Below are positions 3,464-24,310 of a stretch of DNA of 32,028 nt, one piece after another. The notes below the pieces were generated by a model that did no database searches, was not told the DNA's origin, and saw only the letters and a program-made list of their open reading frames with translations. The stretch is from NCBI GenBank assembly GCA_022340745.1, contig JAJDNL010000169.1:1-32028 (forward strand). The letters run 5' to 3'. The first letter of the stretch is position 1; each line of letters begins with the position of its first letter. The translations under genes and the position numbers were made by a program. Origin of the DNA: Deltaproteobacteria bacterium. Its GTDB lineage: Bacteria > Desulfobacterota > Syntrophobacteria > BM002.

Positions 3464-4990
3464 TCAACTTTGCTCTTCGACGCTGCATCCCTGCTCAGGC
3501 GCAAGGTCTCTGGTAAATACCTCTTTGAACACTTCAACCAAATCGGGATCCAACTGGGTTCCAGCCGCTTTTTCCATCTCTTCGAGGGCCTCTTCCGGAG
3601 TTTTTGACGGGCGATAAGCCCGGTTAGAAGTGATGGCATCAAAGGTGTCGGCAACAGCAATGATTCGGGCCTCCAGCGGAATTGTTTTGCCCTTCAAACC
3701 CTGGGGGTACCCTTTGCCATCGTAGCGCTCATGGTGGTGCAGCATGCCAGGAAGTGAACTTGCCAATTGCTCCAGGGGTTCCAAGATGGTATGGCCCTTC
3801 ATGGGATGATTCTTAATGATTTGATATTCCTCTTCTTCCAACCGCCAGGGTTTATTCAAAATGGATTCGGGAATGCCAATTTTCCCACTGTCGTGCAGAA
3901 TAGATGACCACTGGAGTATTTTTTTCCGCTCTTCGTCCAAACCAAGTCTTTCTGCCATAAGGAGGGAATATCGACAAACTCGTTCAGAATGCCCACGGGT
4001 ATAATCGTCCTTAGCCTCGATGGCGAAGACCAGTGATTTCACCATGTTGATGACGAAACGTTCCAGGTCACGGTAAAGATCTGAATTGGTAATAACCACG
4101 GCTATTTGCTCGGCCATCGAATCTAACAGCCTTAGTTCGCTTCGACGGAAAATTTCCTCGAAATTAAATGAGACCAGCCCCATCCAACCATAGAAGTTTC
4201 CGTTATGTTTCATCTTTACCGCCAGGAAACGATAGGGAACCGGAGCAAGGTCAGTGAATCCTGGGGTGGTACTCGAGTCGTTAACGATAAAGTAGTCTTC
4301 TTTCAGTGAAGGTGAGTTCAACGGGATGGAGTCTAGGAGAACGTCGATGAAGTCATCGTAGTCACCGATCTTCTCAGGGATTTTCTGAGTGCAGACCAGG
4401 GCGTTATACTCTGGCCGCTCCGGCAGTTTGGCAAAAGCCATGTCGGTGCGCATTGTATCCAAAAGCTCTTCAACGAGCTCTTGTAGCATGGTACCCGAAA
4501 ACGTTATACTTTTAACTCGACTGGCAATCTTGGAGTAAAAACAGAGCTGTTCAAAGTTGTCGGTCAGCTCTTCTGCCATCTGTTCCATTTCTTGTTGGCT
4601 GGTCAGCCTGTCTTCCACGAATTCCGCCACCTGGGTAAGAAATCTTTCCATCTCTTCAGTCCGACCCGGTTGCGGTGCTGTGGCGGTATCGGGCAGAGGC
4701 TTTTGCAAAGAGTTGGAACCAAAGGCAATGAGGGAGCCGGCTACTGCCTGTCCATTTCTAAGCGGCACCCCAAACAGCCCTTCTCCGGACTCAAGTGGAA
4801 TATGCTGGAATGCGGCCCTGCTTATAATCTGCACTGAAAAGTCCTGGAGTTCCTCAAGGGCTGGCTCAGCAGGCTCATCAGGTCCTGAGGAAAACACCAA
4901 TCCCTCATCAGCATCCCAAATCTGGAAATGCAAGTGGCTGACGTTCGACAGGCTCGAGAGAAACTCCTTGGATTGGCCTAAATCTATCAT
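3464..4990 (-). CDS. HD-GYP c-di-GMP phosphodiesterase with GAF-like sensor region
   Basis: HD-GYP proteins hydrolyse cyclic di-GMP. The 508-residue product has no obvious membrane segment. Residues about 165-300 look like a GAF-type sensory domain and end with SMAEQIAVVITNSDLYRDLE. The C-terminal HD-GYP domain (about 310-480) shows HSERVCRYS near 334, ILHDSGKIGIPE with the H366-D367 dyad, a conserved NHP (394-396), HHERYDGKGYP with GYP at 427-429, and DTFDAITSNRAYR. All catalytic signature positions are present, so an active enzyme is expected. Only 2 bp separate its start from the response-regulator stop, and 4 bp separate its stop from the STAS start. Its neighbours imply that it sets the c-di-GMP level seen by the MshEN domain of GspE. 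The first 140 residues are of unknown fold. Confidence 0.92.
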   Translation of the reverse strand: MIDLGQSKEFLSSLSNVSHLHFQIWDADEGLVFSSGPDEPAEPALEELQDFSVQIISRAAFQHIPLESGEGLFGVPLRNGQAVAGSLIAFGSNSLQKPLPDTATAPQPGRTEEMERFLTQVAEFVEDRLTSQQEMEQMAEELTDNFEQLCFYSKIASRVKSITFSGTMLQELVEELLDTMRTDMAFAKLPERPEYNALVCTQKIPEKIGDYDDFIDVLLDSIPLNSPSLKEDYFIVNDSSTTPGFTDLAPVPYRFLAVKMKHNGNFYGWMGLVSFNFEEIFRRSELRLLDSMAEQIAVVITNSDLYRDLERFVINMVKSLVFAIEAKDDYTRGHSERVCRYSLLMAERLGLDEERKKILQWSSILHDSGKIGIPESILNKPWRLEEEEYQIIKNHPMKGHTILEPLEQLASSLPGMLHHHERYDGKGYPQGLKGKTIPLEARIIAVADTFDAITSNRAYRPSKTPEEALEEMEKAAGTQLDPDLVEVFKEVFTRDLAPEQGCSVEEQS

Positions 4991-4992
4991 TG

Positions 4993-5370
4993 TTATTGGT
5001 TCCCAAAATACTGGTCAACGCATTTCAAAATTGTCTGGAGGCTGAAAGGCTTTTCCACAAACACGGTGTCTGTCAGGTGTCCTATCCAGTCCTTCTCGGT
5101 TGGAGATATGCGACATGTCATGACAATGGTCAAAAACGGTCTTTCCTCTTTCAGTTCGTTTGCTCGTTCACACAGAGCCTTGCCATCGAGCTTGGGCATC
5201 ATGATGTCGGTGATAACAACATCTGGTTGCTCGCTCTTGATGAGATCAAGCCCCTCCTCACCATTGGTGGCGGTGATGACCTGGTAGCCCTGGTTCTTGA
5301 ATTTGAGTTCGATCACTCGCCTGATGTGGGCTTCATCGTCTATGACCAGAACCCGTTTATTGTTTTCCAA
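4993..5370 (-). CDS. Stand-alone response regulator receiver (CheY-like)
   Basis: This is a 125-residue receiver domain with no output domain. It has the acidic pair in VLVIDDEAH, the phospho-acceptor Asp in VVITDIMMPKLDG, a Thr switch residue in IVMTCRIS and the conserved Lys in VEKPFS. Its start overlaps the end of the histidine kinase gene by 14 bp, and its stop is 2 bp from the HD-GYP start. Cognate pairing with that kinase is therefore likely. With no DNA-binding domain it probably signals by protein contact, for example to the HD-GYP protein. It cannot be the sigma-54 activator for the promoters described elsewhere in the window, because it lacks an AAA+ domain. Confidence 0.93.
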   Translation of the reverse strand: MENNKRVLVIDDEAHIRRVIELKFKNQGYQVITATNGEEGLDLIKSEQPDVVITDIMMPKLDGKALCERANELKEERPFLTIVMTCRISPTEKDWIGHLTDTVFVEKPFSLQTILKCVDQYFGNQ

Positions 5371-7186
5371 GGTAATATTCCTCCTTCGGTAGCCTGATCT
5401 TGAAGTAACTTCCCTCGTCAGGCTTACTGTTTACCTCAATCTCTCCACCGTGGAGGCGAACGATCTCCGAAGTTAATGCAAGCCCCAGGCCACTTCCGGT
5501 CTGTTCGGTAACACGAGGATCCGTGGAGCGATAGAACTTGTCAAAAACATGGGGGAGATCTTCCTTGGAAATGCCATAGCCATCATCGGTGACTTCAAAG
5601 ATTATGAAGTCCTCCTGTTCGGTGAGCATGAACTGAATGTGCCCGTTTTCAGGAGTATATTTCACTGCATTGCCAAGGATGTTGATGATTGCCACCTTCA
5701 GGAGTTCTTTATCGGCGAACAGAGATGGAAAACTGTCAGGCAGGTTCCGTTCAATAGTAATTTTTTTCTTTTGGGCGGCCCCCTCAACGGTGGTCAGACA
5801 ATCGTCAAAAAGCCAATCACTTTTGACGAGTCCTTTGTGGAGGGTTAGGCTGCCCATTTCAATCTTGGAGATGTTGAGCAGGTTCTTAACGAGACTCGTC
5901 AAGCGATTGGTCTCCTCGTTGATGGTATTATAGAATTCCTTTTGCATCTCAATGTTGTCTATTTCATCATCCATCAACATCTCATTGTATGAATTAATAG
6001 TCGTCAAGGGCGTAAGTAATTCGTGCGTGATACGAGTGATAAATTCATGCTTGGCATTTTCGGCTGCTTTCTCACTGGTTATGTTCTTAAACGATATGAC
6101 ATTGCCAATGACATCTTCCTCTCTCCCACTCAAATAGGAAAAAGAGACGAGAAAAGACTCTCCAGAGGCAAGTTCAGGAAAGGTGGTTTCAATATAACTG
6201 GCGCCACTATTTTGCTTCAGTGCCTCCTGCTGTGAGAGAAATGCTGTGATTTGATCGTGAGCGAGAACATCGCTTAAGGGATGATCGATCACCTCATCCC
6301 GTTTCTTGTCGAGCAGGTTCAGCATGTAGGAGTTGATGTGAGTTATATTATCTTGAATGTCAGTCACAATTATCCCGTAATTTATGGAATCGAGGATGTT
6401 GAAGACGTTGTGTTTCTCAAATGAAGTGACACCATATTTGGTTGTCAAATCGATGTTTTCAGCCTGGATTTTTTCGTATCTGTCTTTGAGTTGAAACACC
6501 GATTGCTCGAGGCCTTTTATGATCTCGCCAACGCCGCCATTCTTGAAAGAACCGGAAGAGACAGGCACTGAGTCTATGCAGATGTTCCTGAAATTTTGGT
6601 TGACTTCATGGAGAGGGCGAAGTGCCAGGGTGACTCCGTAATAGACCAAGATCGCCATAGAAAATGCGAAAAAGGCCATTATGGCCATAAGCTTAATACG
6701 CCCGAGAGAAAACATTGATATGGGCGGGAGATCGAAGCCCATTCTCACCGTGCCACTTCTCTGTCCACCTTCAAAAATCGGTTTGGCAAATTCACTTATA
6801 GTATGGTCCGTTCCCTCCATCTGATAGGTCTGTCGTATTAACCCATTTACATACAGGGATCTTTGTTCCACCTCAGTGGGGATTTTGGCCACAACATCAC
6901 GGTGTGCCAGGGAGAGAAGGGGGCTTCCGGTTGGATCCTGCACGATGCAATAGATCAGGCCATCTGAAGTAACGTATTCGGCCAGTGTCTTGACGATGTA
7001 CTCACGCTTGCTGCCGTAAAAGTCTTCCATCGGATGAAGCGCAACCAGACTGACGAGATAGTTACCTTTTTGCTGAAGGTCTAGAGTTCTACTCCTCTGT
7101 TCCTGCTGTTGTAGGGTCTGGGCAAAGATACCGATGCCGATCACGAAGATGACAAGTGTTGCAATGGTGATCCGTTGAACTTTCAT
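5357..7186 (-). CDS. Membrane-bound sensor histidine kinase
   Basis: This is a 609-residue sensor kinase. A first membrane helix lies near residues 6-23, a periplasmic sensing region at about 24-163 and a second helix at about 165-187. A juxtamembrane, HAMP-like stretch follows, then a PAS-like domain (about 262-370; ILDSINYGIIVTDIQDN). The HisKA H-box is HEFITRITHELLTPLTTINS, with the phospho-acceptor at about H388. The HATPase region has the N box (NILGNAVKYTPENG), G1 (DDGYGIS), the F box (DKFYRS) and G2 (GSGLGLALT). The usual Arg of the H-box HELRTP motif is Leu. Its 3' end overlaps the response-regulator gene. AAGGGAAA upstream of the ATG is a usable ribosome site. It is probably the first gene of the operon reaching to the pilin. 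Confidence 0.95.
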   Translation of the reverse strand: MKVQRITIATLVIFVIGIGIFAQTLQQQEQRSRTLDLQQKGNYLVSLVALHPMEDFYGSKREYIVKTLAEYVTSDGLIYCIVQDPTGSPLLSLAHRDVVAKIPTEVEQRSLYVNGLIRQTYQMEGTDHTISEFAKPIFEGGQRSGTVRMGFDLPPISMFSLGRIKLMAIMAFFAFSMAILVYYGVTLALRPLHEVNQNFRNICIDSVPVSSGSFKNGGVGEIIKGLEQSVFQLKDRYEKIQAENIDLTTKYGVTSFEKHNVFNILDSINYGIIVTDIQDNITHINSYMLNLLDKKRDEVIDHPLSDVLAHDQITAFLSQQEALKQNSGASYIETTFPELASGESFLVSFSYLSGREEDVIGNVISFKNITSEKAAENAKHEFITRITHELLTPLTTINSYNEMLMDDEIDNIEMQKEFYNTINEETNRLTSLVKNLLNISKIEMGSLTLHKGLVKSDWLFDDCLTTVEGAAQKKKITIERNLPDSFPSLFADKELLKVAIINILGNAVKYTPENGHIQFMLTEQEDFIIFEVTDDGYGISKEDLPHVFDKFYRSTDPRVTEQTGSGLGLALTSEIVRLHGGEIEVNSKPDEGSYFKIRLPKEEYYLGKQ

Positions 7187-7719: not shown

Positions 7720-10029
7720 CTACTCCTTCATGGGAAGTGGGTCTTCCATCGGGTCATCAGAGGATCCATCATCGACGGTTTCATCGCCAGGTTCGGTTCC
7801 ACTGACCTCGTCAGCAGCTGGAACGACCACAACGGGGGTCTCAACGACAGGCTCTTCAGGGGTTACTACAGCCGTCTCATCCACTGTGGAGTCACCCACG
7901 ACGGGGGTTTCAGTACCAGATTCGACTACAGGATTTTCGTCGCCAACGGTTTGTACGACTGCAGTATCATCACCGCCAACAGCAGGTTCCTCAGGGGTTC
8001 CTCCAGCCGGTTCTGCCATCGTAGTGTCACCAGCATCGGTGGGCGCACCGTCGCTGTCACTTTCATCAACGACATCCACAGGATCCTCTGGGTTTTCCGC
8101 AGTAGACACTGCAGCAGTAGGTACATCACCGGTTTCTTCTACGGTGATTTCCTCAGGGGGAGCACTGCTGGGCTCAAGAGCAGTGGTGCTCAGAGTCACC
8201 GGCGCCAGGTCGCCGTCCTCAGATTCGCCAGATAAAGCACTCTGAACATCTTCTGATTCTGCAGCCGATGTTGATGCGCTGATATCATCCTCAGATTCAT
8301 CATCAGGCCAGGCCACCTCAAAGGTTTTCCAGGCCTGACTATCCTCCTGCAGGCTTGAAGTCAAAGACAAGCAATAGTCAGTCTGGTAGAAGCGGAGCAG
8401 AGGTCGAATAACCATGACGTAATAGGTACCGTCCGCTGGTAAGGTTGCCGACATACTGAAAGGTACGTGGTCCTTCGTCCTTTTTCTATAATCAACACCG
8501 GGAATCGCATCTCGGATACCCAGGAACACACGCCCTTTGCCGTTCCAGTAGTTCAGCCATAAATTCTTCAGTTTACTGCTTTCTGTGGACTCCTCTGCTG
8601 CAACGGCCTCTGCTGACTCTATCCCGTCCAGCTCTACATTGAGGGTGACCGTTTCACCTTGCATGCCCTCAAATTTAAAGAGGCCGATGGCACGATGCAG
8701 GGGATTCTTTTTCAGTTTGGATCTGGAGAGTTTGGGGTCAGCAGTGCCTGAACTGGTAGATGCTGAAGTAGAAAATGTCGAAGAACAGATAGTCCCTACC
8801 GGATCAACACCCGCGGCTTCTCTAACCACAAAGGTCAAGCCGCTTACCGCTGTTGAGGGGTAGCCAATGGACACAGCATGGCCGTTGGTATGATCTATCT
8901 CATAAAGATTTCCTGAGAGATCAATCCCGATCAAAAAGTTTTCATTACTAAAGTCAAGAGACACTACATTGACCGGCTCGCCGGTCGTCTCATCAACGAT
9001 TGGGATCGCACTTGTAGTGTCTACTAAAAGTTCTGGTTCCAGGTAAATCTTAATAAGATCACTTTTGCTTGCAATCGAGGCGACACCATATATTACCTTC
9101 TCAACCGAATGATATGCGAGGGTCCGTACTTGCTGCTTACCAAAGAGAAAAACAGGGGCTAAAGTGGCTTTTGGATTTATTGGATCGCTCTCATCGAACG
9201 TGACCTGGACCAGAGTGGACTCTTCACTAGAAGGATTGACCTGAACTCCGTACAGCATATTTTCCGTGGCCTCGAGGGCAAAAACCGTGGGAATCGTCCC
9301 TGTCTCTGGAGCTAGGTTGTAGGTCTGAACTTTAGCACCGGTAACCCGATCAATGGCAATAATGTTGCCAGGATTATCATCGATGGCAAGGAGAAGTGTG
9401 TCGGTACCGTAGTGATATTCGATATCTGCTATCGGGCCAACGCCCAGATCAAAAGGAAGAGAGCTCTCGGCGGTTTCAGGGGTGATATTTACAAGCGAGC
9501 CAGTGGAGCCGGTGGAACCTATCAACTCGCCATCTCCAAGTGGCCATGTCAACTCGGGAGCAGGGGGCTGAGTGGAACACGTGAGTAACAAGGTGTAGGA
9601 ACCGGTATCAGAGCCTGCGCCGGGAGTTTCAGCACTGATGGCAAGATAGTAAGTGCCACCCACATCGACATTCATTTCAAGATATGGGTCTGGACTGACA
9701 TCCTTTTCAGAAGAGGACTCAACGCTTACTGCCACTAGTTCTCCAGCGGTATCGAAAACTTCCAACATGGAGTCCAGCGGAGATTCTATTTTCTCAGCAT
9801 CGACATCAATAGTGAAAAACTGGCCTGCCACAAGATCAATGGCGTAATAATCCACTTGAGAAGATGATGTTATTACTCCAAAGTGACTCATTGCAGGGTC
9901 AGCGCAGGTGGCGGAGAAAGCATTGGTGAAGTCTTCGGCGGTGGGTTCTGACGCAAGAACCGTCGGAATGGCGCCAAACAATACAAAGATGATCAGTGCA
10001 AATAGGAAGAGTTTGTTCCTGGGTTTCAT
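7720..10029 (-). CDS. Exported PPC-domain / beta-propeller-like protein with acidic tail
   Basis: A predicted secreted or surface protein of 769 residues. The signal peptide is MKPRNK, a hydrophobic core and a probable cleavage after VLA near residue 26. Residues about 45-155 resemble a bacterial pre-peptidase C-terminal (PPC) domain (VDYYAIDLVAGQFFTIDV ... GGTYYLAIS). Residues about 195-400 form repeated strands like a propeller (EIDHTNGHAVSIG, AIDRVTGAKV). A second PPC-like segment follows (about 420-560; DGTYYVMVIRP). The last ~200 residues are a low-complexity Glu/Asp/Thr/Pro/Val tail. The longer open frame starting TTG at 10110 is wrong, because that TTG lies in the -24 promoter element. 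The ATG at 10029 has an AGGGGGAT ribosome site. It is likely expressed alone from the sigma-54 promoter at 10095-10110. The function is unknown; adhesin-like or matrix roles are guesses. Confidence 0.85.
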   Translation of the reverse strand: MKPRNKLFLFALIIFVLFGAIPTVLASEPTAEDFTNAFSATCADPAMSHFGVITSSSQVDYYAIDLVAGQFFTIDVDAEKIESPLDSMLEVFDTAGELVAVSVESSSEKDVSPDPYLEMNVDVGGTYYLAISAETPGAGSDTGSYTLLLTCSTQPPAPELTWPLGDGELIGSTGSTGSLVNITPETAESSLPFDLGVGPIADIEYHYGTDTLLLAIDDNPGNIIAIDRVTGAKVQTYNLAPETGTIPTVFALEATENMLYGVQVNPSSEESTLVQVTFDESDPINPKATLAPVFLFGKQQVRTLAYHSVEKVIYGVASIASKSDLIKIYLEPELLVDTTSAIPIVDETTGEPVNVVSLDFSNENFLIGIDLSGNLYEIDHTNGHAVSIGYPSTAVSGLTFVVREAAGVDPVGTICSSTFSTSASTSSGTADPKLSRSKLKKNPLHRAIGLFKFEGMQGETVTLNVELDGIESAEAVAAEESTESSKLKNLWLNYWNGKGRVFLGIRDAIPGVDYRKRTKDHVPFSMSATLPADGTYYVMVIRPLLRFYQTDYCLSLTSSLQEDSQAWKTFEVAWPDDESEDDISASTSAAESEDVQSALSGESEDGDLAPVTLSTTALEPSSAPPEEITVEETGDVPTAAVSTAENPEDPVDVVDESDSDGAPTDAGDTTMAEPAGGTPEEPAVGGDDTAVVQTVGDENPVVESGTETPVVGDSTVDETAVVTPEEPVVETPVVVVPAADEVSGTEPGDETVDDGSSDDPMEDPLPMKE

Positions 10030-10094: not shown

Positions 10095-10110
10095 GCAAGA
10101 TTGATGCCAA
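10095..10110 (-). promoter_or_regulatory. Sigma-54 (-24/-12) promoter
   Basis: The minus strand reads TTGGCATCAATCTTGC, a close match to the RpoN consensus TGGCAC-N5-TTGC. The GG (10108-10107) and GC (10096-10095) have the obligatory 10-base gap. The predicted start of transcription is near 10084, giving a ~55-base leader before the ATG at 10029. The same element stands before the other exported-protein gene (24075-24090). Confidence 0.85.
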
Positions 10111-10177
10111 TCATTTGACGGGCATTATATATAATAATATCATTTAGTTATGCGCTCAGCCTCGATGTGACCACAGT

Positions 10178-10232
10178 TGGCTAGATTGCCACATTTGGCC
10201 AACTGGCAAAATGGTATTTGGGCAAATGGCCA
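10178..10232. promoter_or_regulatory. Three TGGC-N6-GCCA dyads (enhancer sites for a sigma-54 activator)
   Basis: The sites are 10178-10191 (TGGCTAGATTGCCA), 10196-10209 (TGGCCAACTGGCAA) and 10219-10232 (TGGGCAAATGGCCA). They begin 70, 88 and 111 bp upstream of the -24 GG. Centres lie about 100-140 bp before the predicted start site, the normal place for a bacterial enhancer-binding protein. The equivalent sites at 24158-24212 have exactly the same spacing. A further TGGC-N6-GCAA match lies at 10437-10450. The binding protein is not in this window. Confidence 0.75.
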
Positions 10233-10233
10233 A

Positions 10234-10773
10234 CTTCCAGAATGAAGACAAGAATTTCCCCGAAGTGACTTGAACCCGGCCGAAGAGGTATGGTCCCCTC
10301 AAGTTTTTTCAGGCTAGGTAGCTGTGATTCCTACTGTTTTTAAGGGTATGTTACGGATAGAATGTAGTGAATTATCCCTTTCCAAAAAGGGGTTGGGATG
10401 GCAAGGAATTGATGGGAGGGCTTGAACCGGGATGGTTGGCGGAATGGCAAAATGGGCCGAAATATGAAAACTTTTTCCACTTTTTTCCTCTCCGTGCCAG
10501 GTAAGATTCATTTCCAAGTTTTCCTGTATGCCAATGTACTTGGAATCGGCTCAATGTGATCACAGTAACACAAAGGTGGACCCGAGATGTTCAGGGAATA
10601 CTCCGAGTCATCTGATTAAATCGTGCCTTGTGCTTTGGGCGGCTGAGTAATAATGTTCGCTGGTGTGGGAAATTTTTTTCCACTTTTGGGCCCGGATCGG
10701 ACAATTTATGATTACGCCTATGCACATAACTGCGCAGAAAGTTCTTTTCCCTTTGAGCTGCCGTGTCGCAATA
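10234..10773. other. Non-coding region with minor repeats
   Basis: No gene seen. It contains a second copy of TGGCAAAATGG (10204-10214 and 10445-10455) and a palindrome TGTGATCACA (10555-10564) related to TGTGACCACA at 10166-10175. A 13-base TTTTTCCACTTTT also occurs twice (10472-10484 and 10675-10687). None of these has an assigned role. Confidence 0.4.
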
Positions 10774-11035
10774 CGTCATCCCGGCCAAGTCCGCCTACGG
10801 CGGATGCGAGCCGGGATCCAGACAACGTCCCCGCGAAGGCGGGGAACCAGGCACCAAATGAGGTCATTGTAGGCTTTCTGGATTCCGGACATCCGCCTGC
10901 GGCGAATTCCGGAATGACGGGTTCATGTAGTCACGTCATTCCCGCGCAGGCCGGAATCCAGGCATCATTCATTAATCTGTATTTGTGGATTCCGGATCTC
11001 GCTGCGCGAAGCGAAGCTAGTCCGAAATGACGGGT
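10774..11035. repeat. Cluster of REP-like palindromic repeats
   Basis: About five copies of a GC-rich palindromic element occur in alternating orientation. The ends read CGTCATCCCGG or CGTCATTCCCG, with the matching CCGGAATGACGGG and (T/C)CTGGATTCCGGA. Inner parts such as TCCGCCTACGGCGGA and CGCCTGCGGCG are themselves palindromic. This is the common proteobacterial intergenic REP/BIME style, in which units pair into hairpins. No transposase is nearby. Confidence 0.75.
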
Positions 11036-11147
11036 TCGGCGAATTGTGACATAGTGTCCAAGAGGACAAGAGATGCTGCCGAGTTAAATTAGTATTCGTT
11101 TTTGAGAATTATCCAGGTTAACCATGATTGTTCGGGCTCGAGTTACG

Positions 11148-24074: not shown

Positions 24075-24090
24075 GCAGAATTGATGCCAA
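24075..24090 (-). promoter_or_regulatory. Sigma-54 (-24/-12) promoter
   Basis: The minus strand reads TTGGCATCAATTCTGC with GG (24088-24087) and GC (24076-24075) 10 bases apart, as RpoN promoters need. It differs from the 10095-10110 promoter at only two positions. Transcription should start near 24064, about 46 bases before the ATG. Confidence 0.85.
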
Positions 24091-24157
24091 AGAAAATATT
24101 GAAAATAATATCAGTAATTACAATGGTTTGAGAGAAATTTGATTTTTTGATACACAT

Positions 24158-24212
24158 TGGCCAGTTGACTAAATGTGGCAATATAGCCAAAAACCGTCTG
24201 ACCAATTGGCCA
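24158..24212. promoter_or_regulatory. Three TGGC-N6-GCCA dyads (enhancer sites for a sigma-54 activator)
   Basis: The sites are 24158-24171 (TGGCCAGTTGACTA, poor right half), 24176-24189 (TGGCAATATAGCCA) and 24199-24212 (TGACCAATTGGCCA). Each is exactly 13,980 bp from its counterpart at 10178-10232, as is the promoter, so the whole control region has the same geometry. The central 30 bases also match the other locus at 27 of 30 positions when read on the opposite strand, because the sites are quasi-palindromic. Confidence 0.75.
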
Positions 24213-24310
24213 AGTGGTGACTTAGTCTTGGAAGTGAGAAAATAACTAGGATGGTAAAAAAACAGGTAGGAATTTGGCGTCTGAACCCAGTCTGTGAGGG
24301 ACCCAGTCCA

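Follow-up and report, generated by a model that had tools for sequence, protein, structure and literature searches.

Two genes coding for exported proteins, here termed A and B, are each preceded by what looks like the same sigma-54 control region, which raises the question of whether the two regions belong to one regulon and which activator would drive it. The window (the whole stretch of DNA analysed, 32,028 nt) corresponds to contig C62 of a 3.9 Mb genome in 301 contigs (G000). According to the reading that we favour, with a probability of about 85%, positions 10095-10233 and 24075-24213 would be copies of a genus-wide sigma-54 module, acted upon by an activator encoded on contig C99 through IHF-assisted looping, and with surface proteins and c-di-GMP receptors as targets.

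Two copies of one module in the window

The features of the two regions, all on the minus strand, are as follows.

7720..10029, minus: gene A, exported protein of 769 aa with an acidic C-terminal region; orthologues under the same enhancer in G002, G009 and G005
10095..10110, minus: sigma-54 -24/-12 promoter of gene A, TTGGCATCAATCTTGC, GG-N10-GC; its position relative to s1 is common to nearly all other regulon members
10138..10150, minus: IHF-like site A, TAACTAAATGATA, 8/9 of YAANNNNTTGATW, at s1+83
10177..10192, minus: UAS dyad s3 of A, GTGGC-AATCTA-GCCAA
10195..10210, minus: UAS dyad s2 of A, TTTGC-CAGTTG-GCCAA, followed by AT
10218..10233, minus: UAS dyad s1 of A, TTGGC-CATTTG-CCCAA
23146..24018, minus: gene B, exported protein of 290 aa with a Lys-rich C-terminus; orthologue under the same enhancer in G005 (L219)
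24075..24090, minus: sigma-54 -24/-12 promoter of gene B, TTGGCATCAATTCTGC, GG-N10-GC
24118..24130, minus: IHF-like site B, CAAACCATTGTAA, 7/9, at s1+83
24157..24172, minus: UAS dyad s3 of B, TTAGT-CAACTG-GCCAA
24175..24190, minus: UAS dyad s2 of B, TTGGC-TATATT-GCCAC, followed by AT
24198..24213, minus: UAS dyad s1 of B, TTGGC-CAATTG-GTCAG

Both promoters lie where the preliminary description had placed them, differing from each other at two bases, and the lower ends of the dyads are separated from the -24 GG by 111, 88 and 70 bp at A and B alike, thus making the offset between the two loci exactly 13,980 bp. In promoter orientation, module A reads TTGGCCATTTGCCCAA-7-TTTGCCAGTTGGCCAA-2-GTGGCAATCTAGCCAA and module B TTGGCCAATTGGTCAG-7-TTGGCTATATTGCCAC-2-TTAGTCAACTGGCCAA; downstream, both have TTGGCAT...GC at +123. 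Three of the original statements needed adjusting. The three dyads are present, but the consensus first given as TGGC-N6-GCCA is better written as the 16-bp TTGGC-N6-GCCAA, with starts at 0/+23/+41 and with deviations at individual sites. The sequence between the sites has indeed diverged (38% identity outside the motifs, from promoter to dyads), except that an IHF-like site is kept at s1+83 in both loci. Finally, "unlinked" was a loose term for two genes lying 14 kb apart on one contig, the orthologues of which are separated by 12.7 kb in G005. Within the window, the 0/+23/+41 register is matched at one place with a score of 25 and at one other with 27, out of 30, the maximum in 60 first-order Markov simulations being 21.

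Protein A gave a weak match to the PPC domain (E 1.4e-4, below the gathering cut-off) and protein B no match in Pfam; neither matched NCBIfam nor carries a PEP-CTERM tail, the two proteins ending in acidic and Lys-rich stretches, respectively. Genes for an HD-GYP protein, a response regulator and a histidine kinase lie just past gene A on the same strand (window 3464-7186), and in the intergenic region 10740-11110 the palindromes ATTCCGGAATGAC / GTCATTCCCGC recur, which may represent a REP- or MITE-like element.

About ten operons in the genome

The genome was scanned with a pattern of three dyads in register, admitting up to 3 mismatches, and with the reversed pattern as control. The pattern gave 4+4 matches versus 0+0 for the control, and located both window sites together with sites on C44, C158 and C212, whose GG-N10-GC promoters lie at +125, +111 and +122, respectively. 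A 64-column profile (R1), built from 23 triplets, identified ten enhancers at E <= 1.4e-7, i.e., those of A and B in the window and those on C44, C212, C158, C176, C53, C249, C99 and C104. A GG-N10-GC promoter stands downstream of all ten, at about +123 with one at +111. One RpoN is encoded, along with 26 full-score sigma-54 activators. Taken with the conservation described below, these ten promoter-bearing sites lend support to the initial proposal of one regulon, under one enhancer-binding protein and with spacing held by selection. On the sequence, about ten scattered operons, their extents inferred from gene order, would form a new sigma-54 regulon whose predicted mechanism is ordinary. 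Because s3 is degenerate in some members, it is uncertain that all three sites are functional everywhere.

The site on C252, with an E-value of 0.03 and its promoter at +131, is at most a possible member. A triplet-like sequence was detected on C15 at E 1.6e-4, with copies in both G003 and G004; all were left out, since they have no convincing sigma-54 promoter and the DNA downstream differs. These three sequences (L121, L236 and L242, respectively) are conserved in the same 23/18 register, each being followed by different DNA in its own genome. A perfect dyad, TTGGCCATTTCGCCAA, was observed near C207:4786-4801 (L081), 200 bp upstream of a sigma-54-like element and of a gene whose product combines REC and nucleotide-cyclase domains; having no triplet, the dyad was likewise left out.

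Fixed spacing around an IHF-like site

The first T of the promoter falls at +121 to +125 from s1 in 63 of 67 instances. Of the other four, three have it at +111, closer by about one helical turn, and the last is the doubtful C252. Of 32 distinct promoters, 22 have an IHF-like site (at least 7/9 matches to YAANNNNTTGATW) starting at s1+81 to +83, versus 1.4 on average and 6 at most in 2000 shuffles of the spacers; the remaining 10 spacers have no good match at the fixed place. Seven HU/IHF genes were found in the genome, including one for IHF-alpha over the cut-off and an IHF-beta-like gene below it. Fixed phasing around a bend would explain the rigidity of the spacing.

Conservation in relatives

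Matches to the triplet pattern were found in all nine genus relatives, whereas outside the genus they remained at the control level. With R1 at E <= 1e-4, 5-10 enhancers per genome were detected in the ten genomes of the genus, as against one in 31 genomes outside it. A sigma-54 element follows every tabulated triplet of the genus in promoter orientation, and promoter and dyads are conserved together. Of the outcomes that the preliminary description had named as refuting, neither a genome lacking RpoN nor relatives with promoter and dyads uncoupled were thus seen. In the same family outside the genus, where the rigid pattern stayed at the control level, R1 revealed weaker forms. In G011 and G012, which belong to the same family and to other genera, the module precedes PilZ and DUF4388 genes and DUF3859 genes. 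The nearest named records are metagenome assemblies of uncultured Desulfobacterota/Deltaproteobacteria (BM002, FCS_Desulfobacterota_29, ALJrbin.12, ALSabin.159, bin63 and CTSoil_058).

A candidate activator next to the module

For the activator, which the preliminary description had left without a name, there is now a strong candidate. On contig C99, an open frame of 462 codons ends in a stop codon followed by the module and then by a DUF3859 gene. Its product carries REC, sigma-54 AAA+ and Fis-type HTH domains (Pfam PF00072, PF00158, PF25601 and PF02954), with a GAFTGA loop in the sequence, and is by domain membership an NtrC-family response regulator; its binding to the dyads is predicted from adjacency. 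NCBIfam offered no equivalog name for it, and it is not NtrC proper (TIGR01818), scoring 381.4 bits, under the curated cut-off of 558.6.

Orthologues (84-95% identity) are encoded in eight of the nine genus relatives, the ninth being G001, an 80% complete genome with five enhancers in which no orthologue was detected. The module follows the activator gene in G008, G004, G002, G009, G005 and G007 (the promoter region of the last being masked); in G006 the DNA after the gene differs and has no module. Outside the genus, identity is 68% in G011 and 75% in G012, where the activator-adjacent DUF3859 gene has a promoter and no recognisable dyads. In G048, from another family, the best R1 match of the genome starts 41 bp past the stop codon of a 60% identical orthologue, with a promoter 111 bp further on. 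This orthologue (L250, G048:C83) shows GAFSGA in place of GAFTGA, and directly upstream of it lies a gene for a PAS-type histidine kinase, a candidate cognate kinase. When R1 was run over 51 activator neighbourhoods, the matches all fell in the orthologue group of the C99 protein (this genome, G008, G004, G007, G002, G009, G005 and G048), with the exception of one partial 14-bit match (L081).

Neighbourhood evidence is by nature indirect, and this genome is rich in activators. The module and regulon could be real and the dyads be bound by another of the 26, for instance the PilR-like one on C260, with the C99 protein merely lying beside a target. This would agree with the enhancers of G001 lacking a detected orthologue and with the lack of an adjacent histidine kinase gene in the genus (none adjoins the activator gene on contig C99 or in the G002 neighbourhood). 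We nevertheless consider it unlikely, as no other activator neighbourhood in the genome has a significant enhancer, the adjacency recurs in a different family as the best match genome-wide (G048), and, of the three genomes that share the family and not the genus, the two with an orthologue of the C99 protein are the only ones to show convincing modules.

That the dyads might instead be the operator of a repressor or of a regulator independent of sigma-54, the -24/-12 elements being coincidental, finds a point in its favour in the conserved triplet-like sequence of C15, G003 and G004. It appears very improbable given the strong GG-N10-GC found at one fixed distance in all ten sites of the genome and in nearly all sites of the relatives: at random positions, a sigma-54 score of at least 20 at +121 to +126 was obtained in 337 of 200,000 trials (≈0.2%). 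Recent duplication of one promoter with paralogous genes, by which the likeness of A and B would reflect descent and not selection, is suggested by two exported-protein genes on one contig and can practically be dismissed, the genes being unrelated in domain content and sequence, the alignment outside the motifs near-random, and motifs and spacing being kept over 32 distinct promoter clusters.

Target genes and c-di-GMP

Domains of the targets were assigned with Pfam and NCBIfam. PilZ proteins are encoded by targets on C44, C158 and C176 (two in the latter), and the C212 target is a DUF4388 protein with an MshE-related c-di-GMP-binding motif. DUF3859 proteins are found on C99, with homologues at C249, and the C104 target is a beta-propeller protein with a choice-of-anchor domain; the targets of relatives also include a lytic transglycosylase with LysM. 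The regulon had been described as one of exported-protein genes, and such genes are indeed among the targets, but so are those of PilZ and MshE-like c-di-GMP receptors. By an estimate of roughly one gene per kb, chance would place about 0.2 PilZ genes in a set of some 13 targets, versus four seen.

As the targets comprise exported or surface proteins and c-di-GMP receptors, the regulon probably corresponds to a c-di-GMP-linked programme for surface functions or attachment, a link drawn from domain content in a genome which is PilZ-rich anyway (64 matches in 3.9 Mb, an unusually large receptor set). No entry for DUF3859 was found in the literature searched, and membership in the regulon offers a lead to its function.

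Proposed mechanism and comparison with known systems

In NtrC, NifA and PspF promoters, activator dyads lie upstream of a -24/-12 promoter and looping is assisted by IHF; the NtrC site is TGCACC-N5-GGTGCA and that of NifA TGT-N10-ACA. The architecture proposed here is the same, with a different dyad sequence and with three dyads kept in one register over many unrelated genes. From upstream to downstream, the module would consist of the three dyads (0/+23/+41), an IHF-like bending site (+81 to +83) and the -24/-12 promoter (+121 to +125, or +111). The most likely activator being the NtrC-type response regulator of contig C99, its phosphorylation by a kinase would lead dimers to occupy the three dyads and the AAA+ oligomer to assemble; IHF, by bending the AT-rich spacer, would allow the oligomer to touch RNA polymerase-sigma-54 at the promoter, which ATP hydrolysis by the oligomer would then open. 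Module, conservation and gene adjacency were read from the sequence; what we infer from these is that the activator is phosphorylated and binds, that IHF acts and that transcription follows, along with the physiology.

The closest analogue would be the PEP-CTERM/PrsK-PrsR system, in which PrsR, an NtrC-type REC-AAA+-Fis regulator identified through matching phylogenetic profiles, is the predicted driver of scattered, mostly single-gene operons for exported proteins, whose sigma-54 promoters have an upstream site in common (Haft et al. 2006, PMC1569441). The two systems are alike in the type of regulator and in the scattered exported-protein operons under sigma-54. They differ in the site, since motif 1 of PrsR includes TTTACA and its distance varies over 32-92 nt (PMC1569441), whereas here three TTGGC-N6-GCCAA dyads and an IHF-like site are found at fixed spacing. 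PrsR itself (TIGR02915) was rejected as the activator, because none of the 26 activators reaches its cut-off of 502.6 bits (best 447.5; the C99 protein, at 362.6, ranks 15th of 26) and targets A and B have no PEP-CTERM tail.

In the sigma-54 regulome of Desulfovibrio vulgaris, activator genes are co-localised with target promoters, functions are often at the cell exterior and most regulons span 1-4 operons (Kazakov et al. 2015, PMC4641369). The regulon proposed here is larger, with about ten operons, and the co-localisation of activator and target used above is the same criterion as was used there. These likenesses, to PrsR/PEP-CTERM and to the co-localisation seen in Desulfovibrio, are the reason why the mechanism is regarded as ordinary. 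Neither TTGGC nor GCCAA is in the text of PMC4641369, whose motif logos are figures, and no paper was retrieved by a text search of the literature for the motif string. Regulon, activator and rigid enhancer thus appear to be undescribed in the literature searched.

A broader reading, which we advance tentatively and rate a little short of even, is that of a so far undescribed sigma-54 regulon, having an activator family to itself and an enhancer in which three dyads and one IHF site are rigidly placed, and co-expressing many c-di-GMP receptors (PilZ and MshE-like) with surface proteins, by which one response regulator would set the receptor repertoire of the cell. The PilZ and MshE-like targets suggest a transcriptional control of c-di-GMP receptors. 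If this is true, the fixed spacing would mean an activator oligomer held in one geometry, while most enhancers tolerate varied distance. The tens of unrelated promoters that keep this rigid arrangement of three dyads, an IHF-like site and a spacing of +121 to +125 may serve as a data set on how an activator oligomer and bent DNA reach sigma-54. An unnamed activator and a set of exported proteins of uncultured Desulfobacterota would be joined into a single regulon that is open to testing and has a predicted target in DNA.
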